From Flexilinea sp. (GTDB lineage: Bacteria > Chloroflexota > Anaerolineae > Anaerolineales > Anaerolineaceae), in assembly GCA_017432685.1 (NCBI GenBank), contig JAFRIR010000083.1, positions 1 to 64,000 on the forward strand: a DNA stretch of 64,000 nt, read 5' to 3'. Within the stretch, counting starts at the first letter, position 1; the number at the start of each line of letters is the position of its first letter. Shown here piece by piece: positions 33,673 through 50,408 of this stretch. The notes beneath the pieces were generated by a model that had not been told where the DNA came from, searched no databases, and saw only the letters and a list, made by a program, of their open reading frames with translations. The translations under genes and the position numbers were made by a program.

Positions 33673-33679
33673 TTATTCC
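33645..33679. repeat. Heptanucleotide array at the 3' end of the 998-residue hydroxylase gene
   Basis: Five 7-mers, TAATTTC/TTATTTC, ending TTATTCC. The TAA stop of the minus-strand gene (33673-33675) is inside the array. The unit is the complement of the GAAATAA unit at 5794. Confidence 0.85.
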
Positions 33680-36669
33680 GCTATTGCCAGCACGTCCCGC
33701 GGGCAGGCTTTTACGCAGAGACCGCAGGCAATGCACTTGGCGGCTGTGTCCATATCTTCTATCTTGGGCAGGATGCCTTTTGGACAGGCGTTTTTGCATT
33801 TTCCGCAGCCGGTGCATTTCTTCTTGTTGATCATATATACGCCCTTCGGGTTCTTCGTGATTGCGCCTTCCGGACAGGCTTCCGCGCATTTGCCGCACTG
33901 GTCGCAGAGGTGCGGCAAAAACTCACCGGTGTCTGTGCGCTCAATCCGCAGGGTGGCCTTTTCAGCGTCATTGCATTGCTGATAAGCCGCTGCACAGGCA
34001 CGAACGCAGTCCAGGCAGCCGATGCATTCTTTTCCGTTTCGCACGGTCAGATGTTTGGCGCCGCTTTCCGATTTCACAGGGACCGGTGCGGTACGGGCAT
34101 AGGGTGTGTTTTTCAGCGGCAGGATCCGTTCCCGTTCTCCGGTGAGCCGGTAGTAAGCCTCAGCGATAGCCGGTGCGGTGGGAATGGAGGTGATCTCTCC
34201 GATCCCGATGGCGCCGCCTGCGATCTTCAATCCCGGTTTTTCCACGATGATCGCCTTCACCTCCGGCGGGGTTTCTGTGGCACGGAACAGTCCAAGCGAT
34301 CCGTATTGGTCAGTCGGTTTGCAGTTTTTCAGTCCGTAGCGCTCCGTCAGGGCGTATCCCATGGACATCACAACGCCGCCTTCGATCTGTCCCTCCAGCG
34401 AGAGCGGGTTGATGGCTTTGCCGACATCATGGGCTGCCACAAGCTTTTTCACTCTGCCTGTTTCTTTGTCCAGAATACACATCTGTGTCGCATAACCGTA
34501 GGCTACGTGACTGACGGGGTTGGGGACATTGGCGCCCAGCGGGTCGGTTTTCGCAAGGTATTCACCGTAAAATTCCTGACCGCACAGGTCTTTGAGTTCA
34601 TGATCCTTCAGCGCTTCCTTCAGTTTGCGGCATGCACGCAGACAGGCTTCCCCGGTGACAGTGGTTTGACGGCTGCCGGAGGTGTCACCGGAATCCGGCG
34701 CGATCCAGGTATTGGAGCGTTCATAGACGATATCTTCAACGGGGACGCCGGCTTCTGTGACGACATTCATCATCAAAACCGTTCCCAGCCCCTGCCCGAT
34801 GCAGGAAGCGCCGGAGTAGATATGGACTTTGCAGTCATCTTCTACGATCAGTTTGACGCGTCCCCAGTCCGGGATACCGACCCCGACCCCTGAATTTTTC
34901 ATGGCGCAGGCCAGCCCTACCGGATCTCCGTTGGCGACCGCTGCATCATATTCCGGTTTGATCGCTTCCAGTGTTTCCACCAGTCCGGTGGACTCATCCA
35001 CGATCTGCCCATTGGGGAGTACTCCGTGAGGACGGATCGCATTGCGGTATCGGATCTCCCAGGGGGAGATGCCGATGATTTCTGCCATTTCATTGAGCAG
35101 GCTTTCGATGGCGAAGCAGGTTTGGGTTACCCCGAAACCGCGGAAAGCCCCGGCCGGCGGGTTGTTCGTGTAATATGCAGTGCCTTCGATTTCGAAATTC
35201 TCATAGGCATAGGGTCCCGCGGCATGGGTGCAGGCCCGTTCGAGAACCGGACCGCCCAGAGATGCAAAGGCGCCGGTATCGCTGACGACCTTTGCCTTGA
35301 CACCCTGTATGATGCCGTTTTCATCGCAGCCGATGGTGAAATCCATGTCGAAGGTATGGCGTTTGGGATGGACCAGGATGGACTCGGCTCTCGTCAGTTT
35401 CACCTTGACGGGAACTCTTGCGAGGTATGCGATCAGTGCGGCATGATGCTGAACACTCATGTCTTCCTTGCCGCCGAAACCGCCGCCTACCAGCGCGTTT
35501 TGAACTTCGCACAGTTCATGCGGAACACCTAAAAGGCCGGAACATTCGTGCAATGTGGTGTGGGAACTTTGATCTGTGGTGATCAGCCGTACTCCGCCAT
35601 TATTGATGGGGTATGCCACACAGCATTCCGGTTCCAGAAAGGCATGTTCGGTCCAGGGCGTATTGAAATGCCGGCTGAGAACATACTTGGATTTTGCTAT
35701 CGCCTCGGACGCGTTCCCGCGGGAGACATGTTTGTATGCCTGGATGTTATCTTTGTCGGTTTCAAAAACCAGCGGGGCATCCGGCTTCGCGGCTTCTTCC
35801 GGTGAACTGACGAAGGGCAGAACCTCATATTCCACTTTTACAAGGTTCTTTGCCTTTTTCAATGTCTGATAATCCCTTGCGCAGACCAGAGCGATGGAAT
35901 CACCGAGATAGTGCGTGATCTCTCCGACCGGGATGAGTGTGGGCTGGTCTTTTTTCAGATGTCCGATATAGTTTGTCCCGGGGATATCTTCGGCAGTTAA
36001 AACGCATACCACCCCGGGCAGCGCTTTGGCGGCGGAAGTGTCGATGGAAAGGACCCGGGCCCGGGGATATTTGGAACGCACAGCGCTGCCGAAACACATG
36101 CCTTCCGGGTAAAAATCGTCAGGATATTTCCCGTATCCCAGCACCTTTTCGCGCACATCCACACGGTGAACGCGGTTCCCGACATGCCAGTCGTTGACGG
36201 AAGGCTCGGGAATAAAGCCGTCCCGCAGAGCTTTGGCCGCCAGTTGGATGGCTTTGATGATCTTGACATATCCGGTGCAGCGGCAGATGTTGTTGCGGAT
36301 GGCGAAGCGGATCTCTTCTTCTGTCGGGTTTGTGTTCCAGTCCAGCAGACCTTTTGCGCACATCACCATGCCCGGAATGCAGAACCCGCACTGGACCGCA
36401 CCGGCCTCTCCGAAGGCCCAGGTGTAAAGCTTTTTCTCAAAATCCGTGAGTCCTTCGACCGTGATGATGCTCTTCCCTTCCAATTGGCCGGTCTTTACAG
36501 TGCATGCCCTTACGGTTTTCCCGTCGATCAGGACGGTGCAGGTTCCGCAGGCGCCTTCACTGCAGCCGTCTTTGGCGGCTGTTAAATGCATATCATCACG
36601 CAGGAAGCGCATCAGGGACTGATTTTTTTCAGTTGTGATTTGTTCGCCGTTCAGTAAAAAAGCTGTCAT
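33673..36669 (-). CDS. Single-chain molybdenum hydroxylase fused to 2Fe-2S and four 4Fe-4S motifs (XdhD-like)
   Basis: A 998-residue fusion. Residues 1-155 are the 2Fe-2S module (CSEGACGTCTVLIDG, later CGFCIPGMV and CRCTGYVKII). About 165-860 is the molybdopterin domain (GGGFGGKEDMSVQ, PPAGAFRGFGVTQTCF, GAIGIGEITSIPTAPA). Residues about 880-998 hold four cysteine motifs: CIGCLDCVRAC, CDQCGKCAEACP, CTGCGKCKNACP and CIACGLCVKACP. The first two modules resemble E. coli XdhD. The ferredoxin tail is additional, and no FAD domain is present. Electrons probably leave through the 4Fe-4S clusters to a ferredoxin-like partner. A strong promoter and an operator-like palindrome lie just upstream. Confidence 0.9.
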   Translation of the reverse strand: MTAFLLNGEQITTEKNQSLMRFLRDDMHLTAAKDGCSEGACGTCTVLIDGKTVRACTVKTGQLEGKSIITVEGLTDFEKKLYTWAFGEAGAVQCGFCIPGMVMCAKGLLDWNTNPTEEEIRFAIRNNICRCTGYVKIIKAIQLAAKALRDGFIPEPSVNDWHVGNRVHRVDVREKVLGYGKYPDDFYPEGMCFGSAVRSKYPRARVLSIDTSAAKALPGVVCVLTAEDIPGTNYIGHLKKDQPTLIPVGEITHYLGDSIALVCARDYQTLKKAKNLVKVEYEVLPFVSSPEEAAKPDAPLVFETDKDNIQAYKHVSRGNASEAIAKSKYVLSRHFNTPWTEHAFLEPECCVAYPINNGGVRLITTDQSSHTTLHECSGLLGVPHELCEVQNALVGGGFGGKEDMSVQHHAALIAYLARVPVKVKLTRAESILVHPKRHTFDMDFTIGCDENGIIQGVKAKVVSDTGAFASLGGPVLERACTHAAGPYAYENFEIEGTAYYTNNPPAGAFRGFGVTQTCFAIESLLNEMAEIIGISPWEIRYRNAIRPHGVLPNGQIVDESTGLVETLEAIKPEYDAAVANGDPVGLACAMKNSGVGVGIPDWGRVKLIVEDDCKVHIYSGASCIGQGLGTVLMMNVVTEAGVPVEDIVYERSNTWIAPDSGDTSGSRQTTVTGEACLRACRKLKEALKDHELKDLCGQEFYGEYLAKTDPLGANVPNPVSHVAYGYATQMCILDKETGRVKKLVAAHDVGKAINPLSLEGQIEGGVVMSMGYALTERYGLKNCKPTDQYGSLGLFRATETPPEVKAIIVEKPGLKIAGGAIGIGEITSIPTAPAIAEAYYRLTGERERILPLKNTPYARTAPVPVKSESGAKHLTVRNGKECIGCLDCVRACAAAYQQCNDAEKATLRIERTDTGEFLPHLCDQCGKCAEACPEGAITKNPKGVYMINKKKCTGCGKCKNACPKGILPKIEDMDTAAKCIACGLCVKACPRDVLAIAE

Positions 36670-37884: not shown

Positions 37885-38114
37885 GAGAGGGTCGATACCC
37901 GTATGGGGACTGTACCTCGGGAGGACGATTATACCTCTGGAAATTGAACGCCGAGTCCCCGGGGCCGAAGATCCTGCGCTGCATCAATCGAGCGAAACGA
38001 GAGAGGGTCAGTACCCGTATGGGGACTGTTCCTCGGGGAGGACAGGTTTACCTCCGGCAATTGGACGCCGAGTCCCCGGGGCCGAAGGTCCTGCGCTGCA
38101 TCAATCGAGCGAAG
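37885..38114 (+). repeat. Tandem 116-bp direct repeat (two units)
   Basis: Unit 1 (37885-38000) and unit 2 (38001-38114) both read GAGAGGGTC..TACCCGTATGGGGACTGT..CCTCGGG..GGAC, then ACGCCGAGTCCCCGGGGCCG and CTGCGCTGCATCAATCGAGC. They differ at a small number of positions. A third, partial copy is at 37121. Confidence 0.8.
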
Positions 38115-38186
38115 CTCGCACCTTACAGCGCAGGTTTGGAACAGGCCCCTGCGGGACCCGTCCCCTACCACATTTTTTCACAAAAG

Positions 38187-38217
38187 GCAACCGACAATAT
38201 TGTCGGTTCCATTTTTT
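38187..38217 (+). terminator. Hairpin with T-run
   Basis: AACCGACAAT (38189-38198) pairs perfectly with ATTGTCGGTT (38199-38208). Six T residues follow shortly after. It could end transcription from the toxin-antitoxin genes. Confidence 0.5.
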
Positions 38218-38236
38218 AAATTACCGGTGTAAACTC

Positions 38237-38292
38237 ATAAGCAAATAGTAAGTAATAAGGAGTAAGGAGCAGGAAACCTGAATCCTGACACC
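38237..38292 (+). repeat. Heptanucleotide array (drifting units)
   Basis: Eight to nine 7-mers in one register: ATAAGCA, AATAGTA, AGTAATA, AGGAGTA, AGGAGCA, GGAAACC, TGAATCC, TGACACC. It then runs straight into the TGAGCAC start of repeat copy F. Confidence 0.65.
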
Positions 38293-38293
38293 T

Positions 38294-38447
38294 GAGCACA
38301 CGGAGACTGCTCTTGTGCTGCGGCGAAGCCCGCACAAAAGGGCTGTATCACGTGATGCGTTGTTGAAATTCGCACAACGAGATACGCCCCTGCTGTGCGG
38401 GCTGCGCCGCAGCAGCAGAAACGTCTCGTCGTGCTTCAGCGAACTCT
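38294..38447. repeat. Dispersed hairpin repeat, copies F1 and F2 head to head
   Basis: Copy F1 begins GAGCACACGGAGACTGCTC (+). Copy F2 is inverted: its complement reads GAAGCACGACGAGACG, then GCTGCGGCGCAGCCCGCAC. The two share an edge near 38370, giving a large inverted repeat. Confidence 0.7.
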
Positions 38448-38463
38448 GAGGAAAGGAACAAAA

Positions 38464-39459
38464 ATGGACGAAAAGAGGAACATAACCGGTGACCTGATGA
38501 CGGTAAAAGCTGCCGCCGATGGTCATATTCCGCTTGATATCGATTATGAATCCCTCGAAAAGTCCATGGAACGTTCGAAGGACAAATACCTGCGTTACAA
38601 GCAGGATTTCTTCAACAGCTGCGCGGATGATTCCGACTTCCTGACAAAGTGCAAACGCTGGCAGCGCGCCGCGCATGATTATTTGCGCTGGGCGGGCACG
38701 CTGTTCAATGTCTGTAAGGATGACCTGGACAAACGTCAGGCTGCCCGCGAGATCATGGACAAGATCACCAAAGACAGCTCCATCCGTCACAGAAATCTCT
38801 GCAAACATACCGACTATGTCACCTCCAAAGATCCGAAGCAAATTGACAAAATGGACAAGGCGGAGTTTGAAAGCGCGGCTTTCCTGCGGAACGCTGCGCT
38901 GACACAGGATCGCTTCAATGAACTGTTCCAAAAGGGAGAAAACTACAACGGTTCAGAGCTGCAGGCCGAAGCCGAAGCCTCCGCGAGGGTGGCATATTTC
39001 CGCGAGAACACTTTACCGAAGGATCACATTTTCATTCCGGGAAGAATCATCCCGCCACATCCGGTACCGCGGAAACAGCGTGTTCCTTACGAACCGGACC
39101 CGTACGAAGTGTACAAGAGCCAGCCGGTCGAAGCTTACGAATATGACGAAACGGTCGACGAGCTGGTGCTCAAAGAAGGGTATGTGAGCCCCGACGGTCT
39201 GGTCGATCGAGATTCGGTGAGCTACGACCTGGAGAACATGAAGTGCACCATGAAATATCGGGGAGGCATCCCGGTCACCTGGGACTGGTGGAAAGCCAAA
39301 GACCTCGGTGAAATCCCAACGGGGTGGGCAGCGGAGTATCTGATCCGGCAATATGCCCAGATGAAGGGGGACGAGGTGATCCGGATCCTCGAACACAGGG
39401 ATTATGAGGATGAGGCGCCGGATTACAATCGGATCCCTTCGGAGTTAGAAAAACCATAA
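38464..39459 (+). CDS. Unknown protein, 331 residues
   Basis: I do not recognise this protein. It begins at 38464 (MDEKRNITGDLMTVKAAADG) with GAGGAAAGGAAC upstream; the longer frame from 38395 would translate a repeat. No signal peptide or membrane span is visible. The N-terminal half (about 25-160) is helical and highly charged (ESLEKSMERSKDKYLRYKQD), with scattered Cys. A Pro/Tyr-rich linker (PHPVPRKQRVPYEPDPYEVY) follows. The C-terminal part holds TMKYRGGIPVTWDWWKAKDL and TGWAAEYLIRQYAQMKGDEV. The gene stands alone; a weak stem CAGCCGA/TCGGCTG follows at 39484-39511. Normal codon use suggests it is real. Confidence 0.7.
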   Translation: MDEKRNITGDLMTVKAAADGHIPLDIDYESLEKSMERSKDKYLRYKQDFFNSCADDSDFLTKCKRWQRAAHDYLRWAGTLFNVCKDDLDKRQAAREIMDKITKDSSIRHRNLCKHTDYVTSKDPKQIDKMDKAEFESAAFLRNAALTQDRFNELFQKGENYNGSELQAEAEASARVAYFRENTLPKDHIFIPGRIIPPHPVPRKQRVPYEPDPYEVYKSQPVEAYEYDETVDELVLKEGYVSPDGLVDRDSVSYDLENMKCTMKYRGGIPVTWDWWKAKDLGEIPTGWAAEYLIRQYAQMKGDEVIRILEHRDYEDEAPDYNRIPSELEKP

Positions 39460-39679
39460 TTGGAAAAGCAAAAATATGAGAAAACAGCCGATCTCCCGGA
39501 GGATTTCGGCTGCCTGAATTTAAAGGGGTACAGGCCCCTGCGGGTACCGTCCCTCCTGCGTCCCGTCTATTCATTTTCTGTGTTGCTTTTTTCACTGTTT
39601 GGATTTATAATCAATATTGCGTTTTTAACATAAGTGATTTATCGTCCCACGGACATTTCTAAAACGTGAGGGGAATGAA

Positions 39680-41932
39680 ATGAGCCGGAACACATCTTCA
39701 GAATCAAACTCTCGTCAAATCTTGCTGCCATATTTCACCCCATTGGGCGCCTGTGCCTTTTCCATCAGCACGGCGATCGGCTGGGGGTCATTTGTCGTCA
39801 CCTGTTCCACCTACCTTTCCCAGGCAGGTATTCTGGGCACCGTGTTTGGGCTGCTGGTCGGAATGGCTGTGATCCTGGTGATCAACCGCAACCTGATCTA
39901 TATGATCAACCGGCATCAGGATGCGGGCGGACTCTACACCTACGGGCGGAAAGTCTGCGGCTATGACGTGGGATTCCTGATCTTCTGGTTCCTGCTGCTG
40001 GCTTATCTGGCGGTGTTTTGGGCGAACATCACCTCTCTGCCGTTGTTTGCCCGGCGCTTTTTGGGCACAGCTTTTCAGTTTGGATATTGTTATACCGTTT
40101 TTGGTTATGACGTTTACCTGGGAGAGCTGCTGCTCTCTATCGGCGTGATGGCGTTGATCGGACTGCTGTGCACCCGGAGCCGGAAGGTTCCACAGCTGCT
40201 TGTGATCCTGATGACCTTCATTTTTGTCGGCGTGGTAGTGGTTTGCTCTGCTGTCGCCCTCATGCGGCACGGGAGCAGCGGTTTTTCCTATGAACCGGTT
40301 TATCTTCCCGACAAGTCCGCGCTCCGGCAGATCATACGAATCGCGGTCATTTCCCCCTGGGCGTTTATCGGCTTTGAAAACATCGCTCATTTCTCATCGG
40401 AATTCAGTTTTCCGGTGAAAAAGGTCCGCGGAGTGCTGATCAGCTCCGTATTGATTTCCACGTTGTTTTATATTCTGATGGCGCTGCTCTCCGTAACAGC
40501 CTATCCGCCGGAATACAGCAATTGGTTCTCATACATTCAGGACATGAACAATCTGGAAGGGATCAAAGCGCTGCCTGCTTTTTACGCAGCCAACCACTAT
40601 CTGGGGAATGCCGGCGTCAACATCATGATGGCCGCGCTGCTCTCTGTCGTTTTGACCAGCATCATCACCAACCTGACAGCGCTCAGCCGCCTGCTTTACG
40701 CGCTGGGCCGGGAGCATGAGGCGACTGCCTGGTTCGGCAAGCTGAATGATTCTCATATCCCCGCAAACGCCTACCTTGCGGTTATGGCCGTTTCGGTTTT
40801 GATCCCGTTTTTGGGAAGAACCGCCATCGGCTGGATCGTGGACGTCACGACGATCGGCGCTACGATCATTTATGTCTTCCTGTCCTTTGCGGTCTACCGC
40901 GACGCGAAAGCGAACCGTGATCGGATCGAGCAGACAACCGGGCTGACCGGTGTTTTGATCATGGTCGGCTTCATCATTTTGCTGCTGGCGCCGAAGCTGA
41001 TGTCTTATGAGGCAATGGCTTCGGAATCCTATCTGCTTTTTGCGGTCTGGTCCATGCTGGGGCTGCTGTTGTTCCGCAGTGTCCTGCAAAAGGATCAGGA
41101 ACGGAAATACGGGAAGTCGGTGATCGTATGGATCATGCTGCTGTCGCTGATGCTGCTCACGACGATGATGTGGATGAACCGGTCTACATCCAATGTGACC
41201 GAACGATCCATGGCGGACATCGATGCCTTTTACCAGCAGCATTTTGAAGAGGGTACCTATCCGGAAGAAGAAGCCGAAGCCTTTTTGGAAACACAATCCG
41301 ACCGGATCGAAGACGCGCATTTCCGACGGACATATATTTCGTACGGACTCTTTATTCTTTCGGTGCTGATCATGTTCAACAACTTCCGTACCGCAAGGGA
41401 CCGGGAAGAAAAATATCAGCAGGAACTGACCCGGATCAAGCAGGCAAGTTCGACCGATGCGCTGACCGGTGTAAAAAACAAGCACGCCTATGTTCAGTGG
41501 GAGGAACGCATCAATTCAGAGATCGACGCCGGTGTCTGCGCACCTTTCGCTGTAGTCCTCTGTGACGTCAATGATCTAAAGCGCATCAATGACACGATGG
41601 GGCATAAAGCCGGGGACGAAGTGATCCGGGAAGCCTGTATGAGTGTCTGCAAAACGTTCAAACACAGCCCGGTGTTCCGGACCGGCGGGGATGAGTTCGT
41701 GGTCATCGTGATGGGGGAGGATTATGAGACCCGGCAGGAGCTTGCGGATGCGGTTACGTCCCGGTCCGAAGAGCGGATCCGCAGAGGACAGTACGCCATT
41801 GCCATCGGAATTGCGGACTATATTCCGGAGAAACATCAGTCCCTGCTGGAGGTGTTTGAACCGGCCGACAAGGCGATGTATGTCCATAAACGCCACCTGA
41901 AGGATGTCTGGTACCACCCGGACAATTATTAG
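39680..41932 (+). CDS. Amino-acid-permease-like (APC) membrane domain fused to GGDEF diguanylate cyclase
   Basis: A 750-residue fusion. Residues about 12-460 are an APC-superfamily transporter, starting with FTPLGACAFSISTAIGWGSF and containing HQDAGGLYTYGRKVCGY and SPWAFIGFENIAHFSSEF. Two more hydrophobic spans follow (about 470-495 and 553-570) around a short acidic external loop. The C-terminal GGDEF domain begins SSTDALTGVKNKHAY and has an intact GGDEF at 669-673. There is no RxxD inhibitory site just upstream of it. The simplest reading is a transporter-derived sensor that controls c-di-GMP synthesis in response to an amino acid or amine. Whether it still transports is unknown. Confidence 0.9.
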   Translation: MSRNTSSESNSRQILLPYFTPLGACAFSISTAIGWGSFVVTCSTYLSQAGILGTVFGLLVGMAVILVINRNLIYMINRHQDAGGLYTYGRKVCGYDVGFLIFWFLLLAYLAVFWANITSLPLFARRFLGTAFQFGYCYTVFGYDVYLGELLLSIGVMALIGLLCTRSRKVPQLLVILMTFIFVGVVVVCSAVALMRHGSSGFSYEPVYLPDKSALRQIIRIAVISPWAFIGFENIAHFSSEFSFPVKKVRGVLISSVLISTLFYILMALLSVTAYPPEYSNWFSYIQDMNNLEGIKALPAFYAANHYLGNAGVNIMMAALLSVVLTSIITNLTALSRLLYALGREHEATAWFGKLNDSHIPANAYLAVMAVSVLIPFLGRTAIGWIVDVTTIGATIIYVFLSFAVYRDAKANRDRIEQTTGLTGVLIMVGFIILLLAPKLMSYEAMASESYLLFAVWSMLGLLLFRSVLQKDQERKYGKSVIVWIMLLSLMLLTTMMWMNRSTSNVTERSMADIDAFYQQHFEEGTYPEEEAEAFLETQSDRIEDAHFRRTYISYGLFILSVLIMFNNFRTARDREEKYQQELTRIKQASSTDALTGVKNKHAYVQWEERINSEIDAGVCAPFAVVLCDVNDLKRINDTMGHKAGDEVIREACMSVCKTFKHSPVFRTGGDEFVVIVMGEDYETRQELADAVTSRSEERIRRGQYAIAIGIADYIPEKHQSLLEVFEPADKAMYVHKRHLKDVWYHPDNY

Positions 41933-42009
41933 AGAGCCTATATGCAGCGCTGATAATAATATACAGTAATTATATTTTCACCCTATATCTAATGATTGAA
42001 TTCATGTAT

Positions 42010-42064
42010 TGGACAAAATTATGACAGATGATTATAATCCCTGACAATTCAATTTTGATTGAAT
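42010..42064 (+). promoter_or_regulatory. Promoter and possible operator of the metQ-like gene
   Basis: -35 TGGACA (42010-42015), a 17-bp spacer and -10 TATAAT (42033-42038). Just downstream, ATTCAAT (42047-42053) and ATTGAAT (42058-42064) form a 7-bp inverted repeat near the transcription start. No S-box riboswitch is visible. Confidence 0.55.
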
Positions 42065-42085
42065 GAAAGAAAGGATTGAATCGTT

Positions 42086-42919
42086 ATGAAAAAGTATTTG
42101 GTTTTGATTATTGCTGCGCTGCTGGTCCTGACGGCCGCTTCCGTTTCCGCCAAGGGAATCACCATCGCAGTCCCGAATGATGCGACCAATGAAGGTCGTG
42201 CGCTTCTGCTGCTGGAAGCTTATGGCTTGATCGATGTTGATGACGAAGCCGGCATCACCGCTACCGTCGCCGACATCACAGACAACCCGCTGGGTCTCGA
42301 ATTCGTTGAAGTGGAAGCCGCGATGGTTCCGAATGTACTGGCCGATGTGGACTATGGCATCATCAACGGGAACTATGCTTTGGCCGCGGAACTGGATGCC
42401 GCGCTGCTTTATGAAAACGCCGAATCCCCCTATGTGAACGTCGTCTCCGTCAAGGAAGAAAATGTTGATACCGACGAAGCCAAAGCGCTGGCAGCTGCCG
42501 TGCTGAGCCAGGAAGTTGTGGACTATTTCGAAAGCTACGAAGGTCAGGCGATCTCTGTTGTGGAAGATCCGACCGACGGTTATGACCCGGATGTGGATTA
42601 TGAAGCGCTGGCCGGCGAGACCATCAAGGTCCTCTGCACACTGGACCCGCACTCCTATGTACTGGAAATCGCCAAAGATATCCTTGCTGAAAAGGACATC
42701 AAGCTGGACATCACCATCGTGGATGATTATGTGACACCGAACACCATCGTCAATGACGGCGACGCCTTCGCGAACTTCTTCGCCCACAGCCCGTACCAGG
42801 AAGACTTCAATGAGCAGAACGGCACCGACCTCACCACCATCGCCGGAGTGCACGTCGAACCGATGGGGCTTTACGCCGGGAAACAGGCTGACCTCACAGC
42901 CCTTGGATTGGACGAATAA
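42086..42919 (+). CDS. metQ: Methionine-binding protein MetQ/NlpA family, circularly permuted
   Basis: A 277-residue exported protein. The signal peptide ends SVSA (1-22); there is no lipobox. The halves of MetQ are in reversed order. Residues 24-158 match the normal C-terminal half (IAVPNDATNEGRALLLLEAY, GIINGNYAL, NAESPYVNVVSV). An acidic linker follows (VEDPTDGYDPDVDYEALAG, 159-177). Residues 178-277 match the normal N-terminal half (TIKVLCTLDPHSYVLEIAKD, DDYVTPNTIVNDGDAFANFF, VHVEPMGLYAGK). The new termini fall at the hinge between the lobes, as a true circular permutation would give. metN and metI lie 500 bases downstream, supporting D/L-methionine import. No frameshift is seen. Confidence 0.9.
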   Translation: MKKYLVLIIAALLVLTAASVSAKGITIAVPNDATNEGRALLLLEAYGLIDVDDEAGITATVADITDNPLGLEFVEVEAAMVPNVLADVDYGIINGNYALAAELDAALLYENAESPYVNVVSVKEENVDTDEAKALAAAVLSQEVVDYFESYEGQAISVVEDPTDGYDPDVDYEALAGETIKVLCTLDPHSYVLEIAKDILAEKDIKLDITIVDDYVTPNTIVNDGDAFANFFAHSPYQEDFNEQNGTDLTTIAGVHVEPMGLYAGKQADLTALGLDE

Positions 42920-42941
42920 AGCAAATCCGATTGCTGATTTG

Positions 42942-42974
42942 AAAAGAGGGCTGCATCATCTGCAGCCCTCTTTT
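42942..42974. terminator. Bidirectional terminator after metQ
   Basis: AAAAGAGGGCTGCA and TGCAGCCCTCTTTT are perfect 14-bp arms around TCATC. The A and T flanks serve both metQ (+) and the converging antitoxin-like gene (-). Confidence 0.88.
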
Positions 42975-42988
42975 GAACTTATTCATAT

Positions 42989-43237
42989 TTATTTTCTGTC
43001 AGAAAACGAAATCTTCCTCTGATTGTTTGCACAATCTGTCAGATACATATTGATTGCCGTTTGGTAGGAAATACCAAGGGCATCTGCCTGGTCCCTGAAG
43101 TAATTCAATGTTCGAACCGGCATACTGATGGAAATCTCTTTTCGCAATTGATTGATGTAAGGGTTGTGGATCGCCTTGGAAAAATCAATGATTTCCGGCA
43201 TATCATCATCTAACAGTTCTTCCTCATAATCTTCCAT
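42989..43237 (-). CDS. BrnA/CopG-like antitoxin, orphan
   Basis: An 82-residue protein with an acidic start (MEDYEEELLDDDMPEIIDFS), then NPYINQLRKEISISMPVRTL and FRDQADALGISYQTAINMYL, the ribbon-helix-helix pattern of BrnA/CopG antitoxins. No toxin-like frame lies on either side, so it is either an orphan or a chromosomal regulator. It converges on metQ across a shared terminator and separates metQ from metNI. AT-rich DNA surrounds it. Confidence 0.7.
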   Translation of the reverse strand: MEDYEEELLDDDMPEIIDFSKAIHNPYINQLRKEISISMPVRTLNYFRDQADALGISYQTAINMYLTDCANNQRKISFSDRK

Positions 43238-43304
43238 AAGAATGATTATACAACAAAAATATTCTTTTTTACCTGCTTGGTCTATGATTGTATTTGTAAG
43301 TCAT

Positions 43305-43335
43305 TTGACAACGAAGAATGAGCATGAGATATAAT
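43305..43335 (+). promoter_or_regulatory. Promoter of metNI
   Basis: -35 TTGACA (43305-43310) and -10 TATAAT (43330-43335), both consensus, with a 19-bp spacer, 80 bases before metN. Confidence 0.6.
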
Positions 43336-43414
43336 GAAATGAACTGTCCGGAAATCAGAAATATAGTGGACTTTCGGTCCGATGTAATTCTCTGTCGGGC
43401 AAAGGAGATTATAG

Positions 43415-44443
43415 ATGATCGAATTGAGAAACCTCTCCAAACAATTTGAGACCTCAGATGGTTCTGTGGATGCTTTGCGTCACATCAACCTGACAGTCCA
43501 GGATGGAGATATTTACGGCATTATCGGCATGAGCGGCGCGGGGAAAAGTACCCTGGTGCGCTGCATCAATATGCTGGAAAAACCAACCGAAGGCAGTGTG
43601 ATCTGGGACGGCAAAGATCTTGGGGCAATGTCTGAGAAAGAACTGCGGGCAATGAGGCGCCGGATCACCATGATCTTCCAGAGCTTCAACCTGCTGATGC
43701 AGCGGACCTGCCTGAAAAACGTTACACTGCCCCTTCGCCTGGGCGGCATGAAAAATTCCGAAGCGGAAAAACGGGGTATGGAACTGCTGGAGCTGGTCGG
43801 TCTGCCTGACAAAGCCAATGCCTATCCGGCTCAGCTTTCCGGCGGACAGCAGCAACGTGTGGCGATCGCCCGTGCCCTGGCGACTGACCCGGAAGTGCTG
43901 CTCTGCGATGAGGCAACCTCTGCGCTGGACCCGAAAACCACACACGCCATTCTGGAACTGATTCGCGACATCAACCGGAAGCTGGGCATCACGGTCATTG
44001 TCATCACTCACCAGATGAGCGTGGTGCAGGAGATCTGCTCTCATGTGGCCATCCTGGAGCACGGTGAAGTGGTGGAAGAGGGTGAAGTCAGCGAAGTGTT
44101 CTCCAACCCGAAGGCTAACGCCACAAAGAACCTGATCTATCCGGAGCTTTCGGACGGAGCGGCAATTTTGGCCGAAGGCGGGCAGAAGATCCGTGTTATT
44201 TATAACGGCGCGGTTGCTTCCCGGGAGCCGATGATCGCAAAAATGGCGCTGGACTGCGGCATTCTCGCCAGCATTCTGGGCGCTTCCACCCGTTCTGTCG
44301 GTGACCTTGCTTATGGCTACATTTTGCTGGAGATTCCCGGCGGTCCGGCTGAACTTGCCAAAGCCGTGACCTATCTGAGTTCCATACCGGACATTATCGT
44401 GCAGGTTGAGGCTGAATACGGTTCGAAGGAGGTCCGGCCATGA
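43415..44443 (+). CDS. metN: Methionine ABC importer ATP-binding protein MetN
   Basis: A 342-residue ATPase with Walker [14 protein letters not shown], the signature [15 protein letters not shown], Walker [17 protein letters not shown] and the switch histidine in ITHQMSVV. The last 90 residues ([20 protein letters not shown]) are the NIL domain, which binds methionine and shuts the transporter down when internal methionine is high. Its presence supports methionine as substrate. AAAGGAGATT precedes the ATG. The stop overlaps metI (ATGA). Confidence 0.95.
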
Positions 44444-45147
44444 ATTTCGCAAACGCTTTCACTCCGGAACGACTGCAGGAAGCCTGGAACTGCCTGCTGA
44501 TTGAGTTTCCCTTTGCAATTTGGGAGACCCTTTATTCCACACTGCTCGCAACTTTGTTTGCGATCATCATCGGGCTGCCGCTGGGCGTGCTGCTGGTGAC
44601 GGGGGAACCGAAAGGCATCCGTCCGCTGCCGAAGGTGCTCATGAGCTTTCTGAATGTTTTCATCAACTTCCTGCGCTCGGTGCCGTTCATCATCCTGATG
44701 GTGATGATCATCCCGCTGACCCGGGTGATCGTCGGCACTTCGGTCGGTACAGTCGCATCTATCGTGCCGCTGACGGTCGCAGCTTTCCCGTTCATTGCCC
44801 GTTTGGTGGAAAGCAGCTTGCGGGAGGTGAATCCGAACATTATTGAGACCGCCCAGGCGATGGGCGCCACCCCGATGCAGATCATCACCCATGTGATGCT
44901 GCCGGAAAGCGTACCTTCGCTGATCACCAATTTCACCCTGGCCATCACCACCATCATGGGGTACACGGCCATGTCCGGCGCGGTTGGCGGCGGCGGTCTG
45001 GGGAAGCTGGCGCTGGCTTATGGTTATCAGCGTTATCGCTATGCGGTGCTTTATCTGGCTGTCATCGTTCTGGTGCTGATCACCCAGCTCATCCAGTCCT
45101 TCGGCACCTGGCTCGCCCGCAAGTGCGACAAACGTCTGAAAGACTGA
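44440..45147 (+). CDS. metI: Methionine ABC importer permease MetI
   Basis: A 235-residue permease with five hydrophobic spans. Family blocks are WETLYSTLLATLFAIIIGLP, FLNVFINFLRSVPFIILMV and the ATPase-contacting ETAQAMGATPMQIITHVMLP loop, followed by SGAVGGGGLGKLALAYGYQ. The length is normal for MetI. The ATGA overlap with metN couples translation. A terminator follows at 45163-45195. Confidence 0.95.
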   Translation: MNFANAFTPERLQEAWNCLLIEFPFAIWETLYSTLLATLFAIIIGLPLGVLLVTGEPKGIRPLPKVLMSFLNVFINFLRSVPFIILMVMIIPLTRVIVGTSVGTVASIVPLTVAAFPFIARLVESSLREVNPNIIETAQAMGATPMQIITHVMLPESVPSLITNFTLAITTIMGYTAMSGAVGGGGLGKLALAYGYQRYRYAVLYLAVIVLVLITQLIQSFGTWLARKCDKRLKD

Positions 45148-45162
45148 CATTTGAATTATGCG

Positions 45163-45195
45163 AAACGCCCGGAGGATTTTCCGGGGCGTTTTGTT
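45163..45195 (+). terminator. Terminator after metI
   Basis: AAACGCCCGGA pairs with TCCGGGGCGTTT (one bulge), followed by a short T-run. Confidence 0.8.
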
Positions 45196-45299
45196 AATAA
45201 ATATCTGACACAGTGTTTATGAAAACTTATCTTTAATGCCTCATACTATACAGCGTAATGAAAAAATGATCTTCCCTGCAAAGGGGGAGGAGGTGAACC

Positions 45300-47864
45300 A
45301 TGAATTTCGATAAATATACACAAAAAGCACAGGAAGCGATATCACAGACGCAGCAGGTGGCGCTGGAATTTTCTCATCAATCCGTCGAACCGGCTCATTT
45401 ACTGCTGGCCTTGCTTCGTCAGCAGGACGGCATTGTCCCGGCGCTGGTGACAAGGATCTCCGGAAGCACGGCCGGTTTGCTGGAGGCGGTGCAGAAAGAT
45501 CTGGAATCCCGTCCGAAAATTTACGGCAGCACCACATCTCTGACACTGGCAAGAACAACTTCTGACGTTTTTACCAATGCCGAAAGCATCGCCAAGGGAA
45601 TGCAGGATGAATATGTTTCCACAGAACATCTGCTGCTGGCGCTGTGTGACAGCATTGAAGGCAAAAAACTTTCACAATTCGGTATCACGAAGGATTCCAT
45701 CCTGCGTGCACTGACTGCGGTGCGCGGCAATCAGCGTGTGACCGGGCAGAACCCGGAAGACACCTATCAGGCGCTGGAAAAATACGGACGTGACATGACC
45801 GCGATCGCCCGGCAGGGGAAACTGGACCCGGTGATCGGACGTGATGATGAGATCCGCCGCACGATCCAGATTCTTTCCCGCCGAACCAAGAACAACCCGG
45901 CGCTGATCGGTGAACCGGGCGTCGGGAAAACCGCAGTCGTGGAAGGGCTGGCACAGCGTATCGTCAAAGGCGATGTACCGGAAGGGTTGAAGAACAAACG
46001 ACTGGTCCAGCTGGATATGTCCGCACTGGTGGCAGGCGCCAAATACCGCGGTGAATTTGAGGAACGTTTGAAGGCGGTCCTGAAGGAAATCACCGAATCC
46101 GATGGTGAGATCATTCTCTTCATCGATGAAATGCACACCATCGTCGGTGCGGGCGCCGCGGAAGGCTCCATGGATGCCGGCAACATGATCAAACCGATGC
46201 TGGCGCGTGGGGAACTGCACCTGATCGGTGCAACCACACTGGACGAATACCGCAAATATGTGGAAAAAGATCCTGCGCTGGAACGCCGATTCCAGACAGT
46301 TCTGATCGAAGAACCATCTGTTGAAGACACCATCAGCATTCTGCGTGGTCTGAAGCAGCGTTATGAAGTCCATCATGGGGTCCGGATCACGGACGGCGCG
46401 GTGATCGCGGCGGCAACGCTCTCTCACCGTTATATCGCCGACCGACACCTGCCGGACAAAGCCATCGACCTGATCGATGAAGCCGCTGCCCGTCTGCGAA
46501 CGGAAATCGATTCCAAACCGCAGGCATTGGACGATGTGGACCGCCAGATCATTCAGCTGGAGATCGAGCGTCAGGCATTGCTCAAAGAAAACGACAAGGG
46601 TTCTCTCGAACGTCTCGACAAGATCAAGCAGGAGCTTTCTGACCTGAATGAGAAGTCCGCTGCGCTGACCACACAATGGCAGACGGAAAAGGAAGCGATT
46701 TCAAAACTGCGGACAACCAAAGAAGCCATTGAAGAACTGAACGTCCGCATTGAACAGGCGGAGCGCTACAATGATTTCGAGAAGGCGGCCAAGCTGCGTT
46801 ACGGTGACCTGCCGGCCCTGATGAAGGAACGGGATGATGCCGAAGAAAAACTGAAAAATCTGCAGACGAATGGCGCACTGCTGAAAGAAAATGTTGACGC
46901 GGAAGAGATCGCGGAAATCGTCGGCCGCTGGACCGGTATCCCGGTCTCCCGGCTGCTGGAAAGCGAAATGCAGAAGCTGGTTCACATGGAAGACCGGCTG
47001 CACGAACGTGTTGTCGGTCAGGATGACGCTGTGACTGTTGTCTCCAATGCAGTCCGACGTTCACGTGCAGGACTTCAGGATCCGAACCGGCCGATCGGTT
47101 CGTTCATCTTCCTCGGACCTACCGGGGTCGGTAAGACTGAACTGGCCCGGGCATTGGCTGAGTTCCTCTTTGATGATGAACGGGCGATGGTTCGCATCGA
47201 CATGAGTGAATATCAGGAAAAGCACACGGTCTCCCGTCTGGTCGGGGCGCCTCCGGGATATGTCGGTTACGAAGAAGGTGGTCAGCTGACGGAAGCAGTA
47301 CGCCGGAAGCCTTACAGTGTGGTGCTGTTTGATGAGATCGAAAAAGCTCATCCGGAAGTCTTCAATGTCATGCTCCAGCTGCTGGATGATGGACGTCTGA
47401 CGGATGGACAGGGGCGCACGGTGGACTTCCGCAACACGGTTATCATCATGACCTCCAACGCGGGTTCCGAACTGTGGCTTGCTGAAAAGAACAACGTGAC
47501 CCGCGACGAGCTGAACCGGGTGCTGCAGCGGACCTTCAAGCCGGAATTTCTGAACCGTCTGGATGAGATCGTGATCTTCCATGGCCTGACCCGCGATGAT
47601 CTGAACCGCATCGTCGACATTCAGCTCAAGCGTGTCCGCGATTTGCTGGCCCAGCGTGACATCAGGATCGAACTGACACAGGCTGCCAAGGATTACATCG
47701 TCGACAAAGGTTCCGATACCGATTTCGGTGCCCGTCCGCTGAAACGTGCCATCCAGCATGAGCTGCAGGATCCGTTGGCGCTTCAGATCCTTGAAGGAAA
47801 CTTCATCGAAGGTGATACCGTGAAGGTGGACTCTGACGGTGAAAAGCTGAGCTTTTCAAAATAA
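45300..47864 (+). CDS. clpB: ATP-dependent protein disaggregase ClpB
   Basis: An 854-residue AAA+ chaperone that works with DnaK to pull proteins out of aggregates. The N-terminal Clp repeats ([20 protein letters not shown]) lead to NBD1 (GEPGVGKT, then [11 protein letters not shown]). The coiled M domain (about 400-520: [20 protein letters not shown]) distinguishes ClpB from ClpA/ClpC. NBD2 ([27 protein letters not shown]) and the C-terminal D2-small domain follow. The ribosome-binding site AAAGGGGGAGGAGG is strong. No CIRCE or other heat-shock operator was seen in the 100 bases upstream. Confidence 0.97.
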
Positions 47865-47871
47865 AAAATAT

Positions 47872-47906
47872 GGTACAGATGCACCCGGTGCATCTGTACC
47901 TTTTTT
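47872..47906 (+). terminator. Terminator after clpB
   Basis: GGTACAGATGCAC and GTGCATCTGTACC are perfect 13-bp arms around CCG, followed by TTTTTT. Confidence 0.93.
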
Positions 47907-47927
47907 AGCATTTTTCGGGGATACAAT

Positions 47928-48389
47928 ATGCGTCTGACAACTTTATGCTATATCGAAAATGACGGCTGCTGGCTGATGATGCACCGGGTAAAGAAAGAAG
48001 AAGATGAAAACGCCGGGAAGTGGATCGGTATCGGTGGTCATCTGGAAGAAAATGAATCCCCGGAAGAGTGCATCCGCCGGGAGGCAAGGGAAGAGGCCGG
48101 ATTGGAGCTGACTGACCTGCGGCTCCGCGGTATTCTCACTTTTATACTGCCGGATTGGGGTAATGAGCTGACCTTCCTTTATACCGCGCACACGGATACA
48201 ACTGAGCTCAAAGAGTGCAGTGAGGGTGTTTTGAAATGGATCCCGATCCGGGAAGTTACGGATCTCCCTTTGTGGGAGGGTGACCGGATATTCCTCCCGC
48301 TGCTTCAAACGAGAGATGATGTCTTTTCGCTGAAGCTCAACTATGAGCCGGGAGGGAATCTTTCATCCTGGTCAATAGAACCAAAATAA
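47928..48389 (+). CDS. Nudix hydrolase, MutT-like
   Basis: A 153-residue pyrophosphohydrolase. The Nudix box begins GGHLEENESPEECIRREARE and ends EAGL, with all key Gly, Glu and Arg residues for Mg2+ and diphosphate. The start (TTLCYIENDGCWLMMHRVKK) resembles the 8-oxo-dGTP diphosphatase group. It lies just after the clpB terminator, so it needs its own promoter. The substrate is not certain. Confidence 0.9.
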   Translation: MRLTTLCYIENDGCWLMMHRVKKEEDENAGKWIGIGGHLEENESPEECIRREAREEAGLELTDLRLRGILTFILPDWGNELTFLYTAHTDTTELKECSEGVLKWIPIREVTDLPLWEGDRIFLPLLQTRDDVFSLKLNYEPGGNLSSWSIEPK

Positions 48390-48443
48390 GCCATCAGAAC
48401 AAGGTCAACCCGCTGCTTACCTATAACCCTGTGTTGATTTGAT

Positions 48444-48577
48444 AAGGAAATCTCTAATAACTCCCGGGCGGGGGTATGGGGGCGGCAGCCCCCGGAGACC
48501 TCCAGAGGAGATTCAGAGAATTTATTCTCTGAATCTCCTCTGGACAGAGAAAAATTGATGTTTTTAGAGGGTCTCTT
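48444..48577. repeat. Possible MITE-like element, second copy
   Basis: The left end AAGGAAATCTCTAATAA and right end TTTTTAGAGGGTCTCTT are imperfect inverted repeats related to those at 5834-5920. The core shares CGGGCGGGGGTATG..GGCAGCCCCC with it. This copy contains an extra 44-bp palindrome. Confidence 0.45.
48501..48544. repeat. Perfect 44-bp palindrome (21-bp arms)
   Basis: The arms run from TCCAGAGGAGATTCAG to the complementary CTGAATCTCCTCTGGA, meeting at a two-base TT centre. In RNA this would form a very stable hairpin, but no T-run follows directly, so it is not a standard terminator. Confidence 0.9.
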
Positions 48578-48767
48578 AAAACAATATTATAAATTCCGGC
48601 TGATACTGTCCGGAAACAATTTTATGGTATCATTCGTTATAGATGTTAGAATTGCTAAGGTTGTCATACCGGAAACGCTCTGTATTGCTCCATGTCTGCT
48701 GTTTTGCGGCAACAGAATGAATAAGCAGGACAGGCAGTGGGAATGTCCGGCTAAGGAGAGGTAGATC

Positions 48768-50408
48768 ATGAAAAATAAAATCTTCAGCATATCGATATTG
48801 ACCATGACCGGTTTGTTTGGGCTGTTGGTTGCTTTTCTGGTGTTGATTTTTTACTTTATGGATGTGCCGGTTATCTATGCATTGATCGGCGGCATCGTGG
48901 GATTGATCCTTCAGTTCATGATCAGTCCGTTTCTGACGGACCTGAACATGAAATGGATCTACAAAGCAAAATTCGATGCACAGATCCCGGAATATCTGAA
49001 TAAATTTATTGCTGATGTCTGTGCGCAGAACAACATGAAACTTCCCCGCATCGGTTATATTGATGACGGTGCACCAAATGCTTTCACCTATGGTCACACC
49101 AAAAATGATTCCCGCATTATTCTTACCCGTGGGATTTTTGAACTGCTGGACGGTGAAGAGATCAAGGCTGTTGTTGCCCATGAACTGGGTCATGCAGTGC
49201 ATTATGACATGATGGTGATGACCGCCGCACAGCTGGTGCCGATGGTGCTTTACGCTATCTACCAGGCCTGTCTCAAATATGAGCCGTCCGGAAGCAGTAA
49301 GGATGACTCCAAGGGTGAAGGCGCTGTCCGACTGATCGGTGTGCTGGCATATATTCTTTATATCATTGCCAACTATATCGTTCTCTGGCTTTCCCGTCAG
49401 CGAGAATATTATGCGGACCAGTTTTCTGCTGAGGTCACCCGGAATCCGAATGCACTGGCTTCAGCGCTGGTGGAGATCGGGTTCGGTCTGAGCACAAAAG
49501 AAAAGCGTAACAGCGGACAGTCTGTCGCCAATGCAACAACGCTCGGCATCTCCGATGCGCCCAGCTCCAAGTCAATGGCAATCAGTGGCTTTGTCGACGG
49601 ACCTTACGGCGCTGAATTCACCAAAGGGAGCATCAAAAACGCTATGAAATGGGACCTCTGGAATCCATGGGCAACGGTTTATGAGCTGAATTCAACGCAT
49701 CCGCTGATTTCCAAACGTCTTTTGGCGCTGAGTGATCAGTCACAGAACTATGGGCAGGAGCCCTATGTGACCTTCGATCTGGTGAAGCCGGAGAGCTACA
49801 TGGATGATTTTGCCAAAGATGTTGCGGTCGATTTTCTGCCCTGGATCACCTTCATCATTGCGCTGATCATCTTCTTTGTGGTCAACCCGGGAAAGAACAT
49901 CTATTTTGCCGGGCTGCTTCTGCTCATTCCGCTGGCGGCTTCGCTTTTCAAATATGGATACAGTCACCCGAAAAAAGACTTTGTACCGAACACAGTTCGG
50001 GGATTGCTGGGTGAAGTGAAGGTCTCCGGAATCACTTCGATTCCCTGCGAGGTAACGGGCAGAATTATCGGACGCGGAAACCCGGGATGCATCTTCAATG
50101 AGGATTTTGTCGTACAGGATGAAACAGGCATTGTTTTTCTGGATTATGAGCAGCCGCTGTTCCTTATCAACAAAATCTTCGCACTGTTCAAATCACCGGA
50201 ATATTTTGACAAGGTCGTGACTGCCCGCGGCTACTATCGCCGCGCTCCGGTGCCCTTCATTCAGCTCAAGGAGCTGGTGATCGATGGGGAAGTCAAAAAA
50301 TGTCATACGATCAGCTGGGGCTGGATATGGCGCTGGGTCCTGTTCGGTCTGGCTGCTGTGGCGACAGTATTGTTTATTATTGTCGGTTTCTCCGCAGGAA
50401 GTATTTAG
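48768..50408 (+). CDS. Membrane-bound M48 family metallopeptidase (HtpX-like)
   Basis: A 546-residue protein. Two N-terminal spans (about 7-60) are followed by a peptidase domain with zinc motif HELGH (138-142). The third ligand Glu is probably in SRQREYYADQFS. Further spans near 175-205 flank the active site, as in HtpX, which degrades damaged membrane proteins. Beyond the usual ~290 residues, the C-terminal half adds two spans (about 360-395), a soluble domain of about 110 residues (FVPNTVRGLLGEVKVSGITS) and a final span. That extra domain is not recognised. The gene is monocistronic, with a shared terminator downstream. Confidence 0.88.
   Translation: MKNKIFSISILTMTGLFGLLVAFLVLIFYFMDVPVIYALIGGIVGLILQFMISPFLTDLNMKWIYKAKFDAQIPEYLNKFIADVCAQNNMKLPRIGYIDDGAPNAFTYGHTKNDSRIILTRGIFELLDGEEIKAVVAHELGHAVHYDMMVMTAAQLVPMVLYAIYQACLKYEPSGSSKDDSKGEGAVRLIGVLAYILYIIANYIVLWLSRQREYYADQFSAEVTRNPNALASALVEIGFGLSTKEKRNSGQSVANATTLGISDAPSSKSMAISGFVDGPYGAEFTKGSIKNAMKWDLWNPWATVYELNSTHPLISKRLLALSDQSQNYGQEPYVTFDLVKPESYMDDFAKDVAVDFLPWITFIIALIIFFVVNPGKNIYFAGLLLLIPLAASLFKYGYSHPKKDFVPNTVRGLLGEVKVSGITSIPCEVTGRIIGRGNPGCIFNEDFVVQDETGIVFLDYEQPLFLINKIFALFKSPEYFDKVVTARGYYRRAPVPFIQLKELVIDGEVKKCHTISWGWIWRWVLFGLAAVATVLFIIVGFSAGSI

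Follow-up and report, generated by a model that had tools for sequence, protein, structure and literature searches.

In the window, the whole stretch of 64,000 nucleotides that was analysed, a single clean open reading frame at 42086–42919 (+) encodes a protein of 277 residues. Judged by its translation and by the swapped order of its matches to PF03180, it is very probably a circularly permuted MetQ with a MetQ-like fold, which binds methionine for an importer encoded by metQ-metN-metI. It is followed by metN (43415–44443, +; PF00005 and PF09383), which encodes an ABC ATPase with a C-terminal NIL domain and lies behind metQ in most relatives, and by metI (44440–45147, +; PF00528), which encodes the permease and overlaps metN by 4 bases. 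The flanking native gene clpB (45300–47864, +) is outside the system and served as contamination control in an identity comparison.

Several neighbouring genes were recorded as well. Directly upstream of metQ, 39680–41932 (+) encodes a protein of 750 residues in which an amino-acid permease (PF13520) is joined to a GGDEF domain (PF00990) with the GGDEF motif present, perhaps a transporter-derived sensor. A gene for a CopG-type antitoxin (PF12441; 42989–43237, −) lies between metQ and metN on the opposite strand and seems to stand alone, without a toxin partner. In the related locus L029 (5937–6200 and 6379–6549, −) a CopG-type antitoxin was also present, together with a short frame that by eye resembles a decayed BrnT toxin; the antitoxin had no match in L026–L028. 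At 33673–36669 (−) a chain of 998 residues was judged by eye to be molybdenum hydroxylase-like (xanthine-dehydrogenase type); a 2Fe-2S domain precedes this part and 4Fe-4S ferredoxin motifs follow it in the same chain, again by eye.

The 277-residue protein starts with a signal peptide, followed by the half in which lobe 2 comes first, a linker and the lobe-1 half. PF03180 was the sole Pfam-A family detected (201.2 bits, cut-off 27), and its match was split into two stretches: in the profile search, positions 96–231 aligned to residues 23–154 (E = 1.2e-37), and positions 1–94 aligned downstream of them, to bases 42623–42904 (E = 3.3e-20). The old C-part (residues 23–158, 42152–42559, +; TIAVPNDATNEGRAL ... 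INGNYAL ... SPYVNVV) covers lobe 2 and the segment that re-enters lobe 1, corresponding to residues 100–236 of 4k3f, and the old N-part (residues 178–277, 42617–42916, +; PHSYVL ... DDYVTPN ... ANFFAHSPY ... VHVEPMGLY) corresponds to residues 3–96. Both parts were approximately 40–50% identical to canonical MetQs. Half-profiles for reading the order, which were built from permuted and canonical rows including the window protein itself, gave 161 and 208.5 bits on this protein, and the best of 1000 shuffles reached 10.8 bits with all filters off.

All 22 PDB sequences matched by the window protein were matched in two stretches. In the three alignments inspected, residues 177/178 to 265/271 corresponded to the chain start and residues 22/23 to 154–156 to the chain end. 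A profile of the permuted family again matched 22 of 22 in two stretches, and therefore no permuted MetQ was seen among the solved structures covered by these searches. The original prediction that the two halves of a MetQ are swapped in one clean frame was borne out by the profile positions and the split PDB matches; the opposite outcome, an N-half from a different family and a canonical order, was not what we found, as both halves match the same family. The curated NCBIfam models TIGR00363 (127.7 bits, cut-off 228.85) and NF008285 (129.8 bits, cut-off 374) matched below their cut-offs, also in two stretches. The canonical control L096 likewise remained under both cut-offs (204.3 and 198.7 bits), which are therefore strict for the MetQ lineage of L096 and the window. 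Because its chain order is reversed, we filed the protein as a permuted MetQ/NlpA derivative and not as a plain member. A second PF03180 protein was not found by profile search in the window genome, a draft of 3.97 Mb in 151 contigs that is 87% complete.

Permuted relatives and the met operon

Among 14 genomes of the window's genus, the order read from the open reading frames was permuted in five and canonical in nine, and both forms occurred together in none; in the four permuted sister species the protein was 90–93% identical. A pattern scan of a species-genome collection for close relatives returned 14 loci, all of them permuted (14/14, 49–92% identical). Four came from MAGs labelled Chloroflexi or Anaerolineaceae whose proteins match the four genus sisters exactly, from which we take the window's genus to belong to the Chloroflexi, and ten from MAGs labelled Clostridia, Clostridiales, Eubacterium or bacterium, several of them named after sheep or deer gut samples. 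When these ten genomes were searched with PF03180, the permuted protein was recovered in 10/10; two permuted MetQs were present in G021 and also in G015, where the second one adjoins a canonical MetQ.

In the family of G015 some match was obtained in 276 of 300 genomes. Among the matches listed, 108 of the 300 genomes carried single-frame proteins covering nearly the full permuted profile at 288–504 bits, hereafter type A, and a second full-length group at about 140–160 bits was named type B. The wider class yielded matches in 20 of 391 genomes at 1e-55, or 19 after subtraction of one canonical tandem, and the phylum sample in 5 of 398, or 3 after subtraction of two canonical tandems. Of 199 genomes sampled from the class to which the window belongs, the window genome alone matched (1/199); match rows from its genus sisters were absent here. 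Vescimonas fastidiosa MM35, a named strain, also carries a permuted copy (NZ_AP023416.1, WP_212820853.1); metN and metI follow it, and it is deposited as an ordinary MetQ/NlpA protein. The check proposed with the original prediction, whether other genomes share the order, was thus strongly positive, and the permuted MetQ is a conserved family in gut Clostridia.

Some frames were set aside. The type-B frame of L101, broken by a stop, and the cut frame of L130 were excluded from the order counts. Frames of 596, 564 and 586 residues (G665, G1112, G1244) that had been taken as permuted hold two separate canonical genes in one frame and were therefore removed from the permuted counts. An 811-residue frame of G094, considered as a fused tandem intermediate, turned out to be an upstream frame extension only.

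The transporter genes accompany both types. After leaving out L101 (C-half frame only) and L052, which repeats L037, 30 of 34 type-A loci had metN directly behind the permuted metQ and 28 had metI as well, two of the rest being cut by contig ends; for type B the corresponding numbers were 12 and 11 of 13. In four type-A loci (L033, L037, L039, L164) metNI was not found within 4–5 kb. The order is metN-metI-metQ at canonical loci of the Clostridia family (L096–L098) and at those of the window's genus in which it could be seen; the canonical loci L155 and L156 have metQ first. In a MetI tree of 51 sequences, built with a quick method that warned of long branches, the 27 MetIs from type-A loci formed one clade and six from type-B loci another, beside the MetIs of the canonical L158/L159 type. 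No Rfam riboswitch or T-box was matched at the gathering threshold in positions 38000–50000 of the window or in the loci of 14 relatives.

Unusual canonical neighbours were seen at some of these loci. In L155 (2946–4685, −) and L156 (2867–4588, −) the canonical MetQ stands behind a second, amino-acid-type binding-protein domain (judged by eye) in a chain of about 575 residues, and metN and metI come next. In L050 (5031–8646, +) and L089 (2214–7748, −) the neighbour of a type-B permuted metQ encodes a canonical MetQ of strongly divergent sequence, in which several methionine contacts are missing. The ligand of such a pair may be a different one; in L089 the gene order is N-I-Q(canonical)-Q(permuted)-N-I.

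Comparing identities along the window contig, MetN and MetI were 79% and 89% identical to those of the Clostridia locus L030, but approximately 40–52% identical to those of genus members with a canonical MetQ. Together with the draft state of the genome, these values could point to a misassembly, or to a contig of Clostridia binned into a Chloroflexi genome. We regard such an artefact as scarcely credible, since the same permuted gene occurs in four further genomes of the genus, on megabase contigs in G185 (3.39 Mb), G207, G155 and G114 (3.26 Mb) and in the deposited record of a named strain. Moreover, clpB, about 150 bases behind metI, matches the genus: ClpB was 95–96% identical to that of the four permuted sisters. 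Against the nine members of the genus that have a canonical MetQ, its main matches reached 75–83% (a single piece of 97 residues, 71%), and against four Clostridia 57–58%. It shares the metQ contig in the window genome, G010 and G011, and lies on a separate contig in G006 and G009. As ClpB is genus-like while MetN and MetI are Clostridia-like, the contig is native to the genus and the operon foreign. This supports a permutation that arose outside the window's host and an operon that was acquired. Gut Clostridia would be the most likely source, since the gene is much more diverse there; the host, in which a canonical MetQ was not seen, would have received the operon already in its permuted form.

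Fold, linker, anchor and ligand site

AlphaFold2 with 15 rows modelled the window protein with a pLDDT of 87.4 and a pTM of 0.81, and the closest structural neighbours of the model were periplasmic binding proteins. A bilobed periplasmic-binding-protein fold is therefore predicted, and the case in which no such fold would be obtained did not arise. In VIA-align, the MetQ-family chains listed were aligned only over approximately residues 20–159, over residues 22–242 (1p99, 145 residues) or, in the case of 6cvl_E, with 14% identity across 174 residues. OpuAC also aligned to the model, at 14% identity, which we read as fold likeness without a sign that the protein belongs to that family, Pfam finding PF03180 alone in the window protein. 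Based on the secondary structure of the model and on the topology of type-II binding proteins, which we assume to hold here, the cut would be placed roughly 10–15 residues past the hinge strand, in the loop that leads into the opening strand of lobe 2. The new termini would thus not fall at the hinge between the lobes, as originally proposed, but past it, in lobe 2. The chain would open with the first strand of lobe 2 and then return to lobe 1; a conserved, ordered linker would join the old C and N termini, the rest of lobe 1 would come after it, and a helix leading back to lobe 2 would end the chain.

The linker (residues 159–177, 42560–42616, +) follows the pattern PTDG[YF]D..VDY..L.G in 15 aligned rows. 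In type A it is 19 residues long in 60 of 60 proteins, with the motif [PI][TGN][DTN]G in 55/60 and [DN]Y..[LI].G in 60/60; in type B it comprises 26–28 residues. The 10-residue blocks of the model that span residues 151–180 had pLDDT values of 88, 97 and 98. With its fixed length, conserved motifs and confident modelling, the linker looks like a structural part rather than a loose tether. The linker bridges the old termini, as originally predicted, but is not an arbitrary new stretch.

The Sec-type signal peptide of the window protein (residues 1–22, 42086–42151, +) has an AxA-like end and lacks the lipobox cysteine, which was established from the sequence and by comparison with relatives. A clear lipobox was observed in 19 type-A proteins (L038, L039, L104–L120) and in the type-B protein L121; the regular expression had flagged 26 type-A proteins, seven of which were set aside as their cysteine precedes the AxA site. 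The gap between the cysteine and the first half measured 2–6 residues in L104–L120, 19 in L038 and 12 in L039, and had a median of 14 in 43 canonical proteins, a few of these values being inflated by fusions or start choice. The canonical MetQs L096–L098 of the Clostridia family to which G015 belongs are without the cysteine as well. Lipidation of MetQ is not universal, as predicted secreted forms are also counted in PMC8416018. Since the window copy and the canonical L096–L098 both lack the cysteine, we take the loss of the anchor to be a trait of their lineage, probably separate from the permutation. That the permutation had cost the protein its lipobox was rejected, because 19 type-A relatives have it and the canonical L096–L098 do not; of the original claim of a lost lipobox, only the absence in the window copy holds.

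In MetQ of N. meningitidis, methionine is contacted by R156, N213 and N238 from one domain and by Y81, F98, H100 and Y103 from the other (PMC6739813). Replacing N238 by alanine in that protein is reported to weaken its binding of L-methionine more than 100,000-fold (PMC6739813). Mapped by motif and spacing, the equivalents in the window protein are R38, N96, N118, Y215, F232, H234 and Y237, and the seven positions were identical in 38 of 38 thinned type-A sequences. As every listed contact residue is retained, ordinary methionine binding would be expected, with closure in the manner of a venus fly trap and delivery to MetNI. In type B the equivalent of N213 was threonine in 10/10 and that of Y103 phenylalanine in 1/10, the other contacts being kept; because of the threonine, type B may prefer a ligand other than methionine. 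Compared among the five copies of the genus and their nearest counterpart in Clostridia, whole-gene dN/dS was 0.012–0.095 where it could be computed, with dS near saturation in several of the compared pairs, and the linker alone reached 0.18 on its 19 codons. A dN/dS below 0.1 shows the gene to be under selection and, together with the presence of metNI next to it, supports the earlier suggestion that the protein is probably functional.

That the permuted protein does not bind methionine, and has another ligand or a role other than transport, is a view to which we give little credence. The threonine of type B speaks in its favour, as does the missing anchor of the window copy, given that lipidated MetQ is reported in PMC8416018 to be required for the interaction with MetNI in Neisseria. 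It is opposed by the contact positions kept throughout type A, by the retention and co-inheritance of metNI with the permuted metQ, and by the lack of any second MetQ match in the permuted members of the genus. We therefore retain methionine as the probable ligand of the window protein.

Number and route of origin

For the trees, the two halves were cut out and set in a common order. Rows more than 85% identical were thinned (126 to 95), and two very divergent canonical neighbours (L040_1402, L089_5001) and a long branch (L156_2867) were omitted from later trees, leaving an input of 92 sequences. A first quick tree that still contained the long rows had placed the divergent canonical pair inside type A, which was taken as a long-branch error. 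The trees were unrooted, and the canonical order was treated as ancestral on the basis of the 22 PDB matches and of its presumably wide distribution.

Type A (38 rows) formed one clade (100/99) and type B (10 rows) another (100/100). Joining all permuted rows in one clade cost 36.6 log units and was rejected (AU p = 0.0068, a value somewhat generous because the groups were named after the first tree). When each half was analysed alone, type B joined the canonical subfamily L122/L154/L159, with a support of 99 for the N-half and 97 for the C-half; as both halves join the same subfamily, B is not a chimera of distant parents. The permutation therefore seems to have happened at least twice, in A and in B, beside different canonical MetQs.

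A third candidate, type C, was found in one record of Subdoligranulum variabile (OY725879.1), which is permuted, has a linker of about 13 residues and shows the order metN-metI-metQ. In a tree of 100 rows its neighbour was a canonical protein, with weak support (92/26), and at 96/96 the canonical L096 grouped with A, C staying outside; one clade of A and C was not rejected (AU p = 0.125). A search with the S. variabile protein gave four matches in the order of G390 (28 genomes) and one in the order of G444 (51 genomes), at 51–53% identity. Those in G390, G551 and G444 were type-A proteins, and the remaining matches were in G1288 and G1289. Of two matches on viral contigs, one was type A and one canonical.

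All permuted forms could instead derive from one permuted ancestor, with linkers and flanking genes diverging later. Such a single origin would agree with the shared loop in which A and B are broken, with the usual first position of both in metQ-metN-metI and with the unrejected clade of A and C; moreover, in the N-half tree, which has few columns, A itself is not one clade and needs two changes. The cost of joining the two strongly supported clades, the placement of either half of B with its canonical subfamily, the different lengths of the linkers and the MetI tree, which repeats the split of A and B, all argue against it, and we consider it quite improbable. At least two origins remain the preferred reading.

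As for the route, an origin by duplication and end loss, as originally proposed, seems the most plausible to us. A tandem in-frame pair of canonical metQ genes would have fused; the N-part that follows the signal peptide would have disappeared from the first copy and the C-part from the second, separately in type A and type B. In-frame tandem pairs serve as supporting snapshots of this process: canonical metQ genes stood in tandem in one frame in five genomes (L122, L158, L159, L176, L177; spacers of 15–177 bases), three of which carry genes of the subfamily that is sister to B. This number is biased, as three of the five pairs (G665, G1112, G1244) were found by the permuted profile, which needs one frame; without them, two of four adjacent pairs were in frame. 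Alternatively, halves from different sources may have been fused in reverse order by fission and fusion. Among the frames examined, none held one and a half copies or two copies fused, as an intermediate would, and the signal peptide stands directly before lobe 2, both of which would suit this alternative. We nevertheless judge it rather unlikely: both halves of B join the same canonical subfamily, tandems are at hand, and only two single-half frames were encountered, one due to a stop that interrupts a type-B gene, the other to truncation of the gene where its locus ends. Duplication and end loss thus remains our favoured route.

A wider reading, which we offer tentatively as possible rather than probable, would connect these observations. 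The permutations of MetQ, in A, in B and perhaps independently in S. variabile, would all have opened a single loop, because pseudo-two-fold symmetry relates this loop to the natural N-terminus. With lobe 2 now leading and anchored, the protein would meet the MetI homodimer turned by 180 degrees, its MetI having since become a separate clade, and tether, anchor and lobe order would be exchangeable in nature via in-frame tandem metQ pairs, such as are seen in present-day genomes.

Comparison with known systems

Permuted binding proteins are known in other families; a permuted MetQ appears to be new as far as we have seen. In agreement with the original prediction, no description of one was found in the literature searched, a scope that excluded most subscription journals. 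In the published cases that we found, the permuted proteins are separated from their relatives by a large sequence distance; the MetQ swap lies inside one well-studied family. Here identity is high enough for placement in trees, the swap seems to have happened at least twice, and close canonical relatives are available for comparison. It thus amounts to an experiment of nature, which could show if a binding protein that docks on a symmetric transporter depends on its chain order, on the order of its lobes and on where it is anchored. It is also a warning for annotation, given the plain MetQ/NlpA label of the Vescimonas copy and the behaviour of the curated MetQ models.

With canonical MetQ/NlpA (PF03180; MetQ of E. 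coli and N. meningitidis, TpN32 of T. pallidum) the permuted form shares the same halves, in type A the ligand contacts, and the neighbours metN and metI; it differs in the order of the halves, in the linker and in having its signal peptide or anchor attached to lobe 2. TpMglB-2 (Tp0684) is a circularly permuted glucose-binding protein that has kept ligand binding and has homologues in Gram-positives (PMC4990184). It shares with the permuted MetQ the natural circular permutation of a binding protein, but belongs to another family with a Type I (cluster B) sugar-binding fold, and its permuted part is 13% identical to the matching part of E. coli MglB (same paper), compared to about 40–50% for the parts of the permuted MetQ. 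The glycine-betaine-binding proteins OpuAC and ProX are described as a permutation family in PMC2395249. OpuAC is 14% identical to our model; the relation in that family was found by structure comparison of divergent proteins and is not, as in MetQ, a swap inside a close family.
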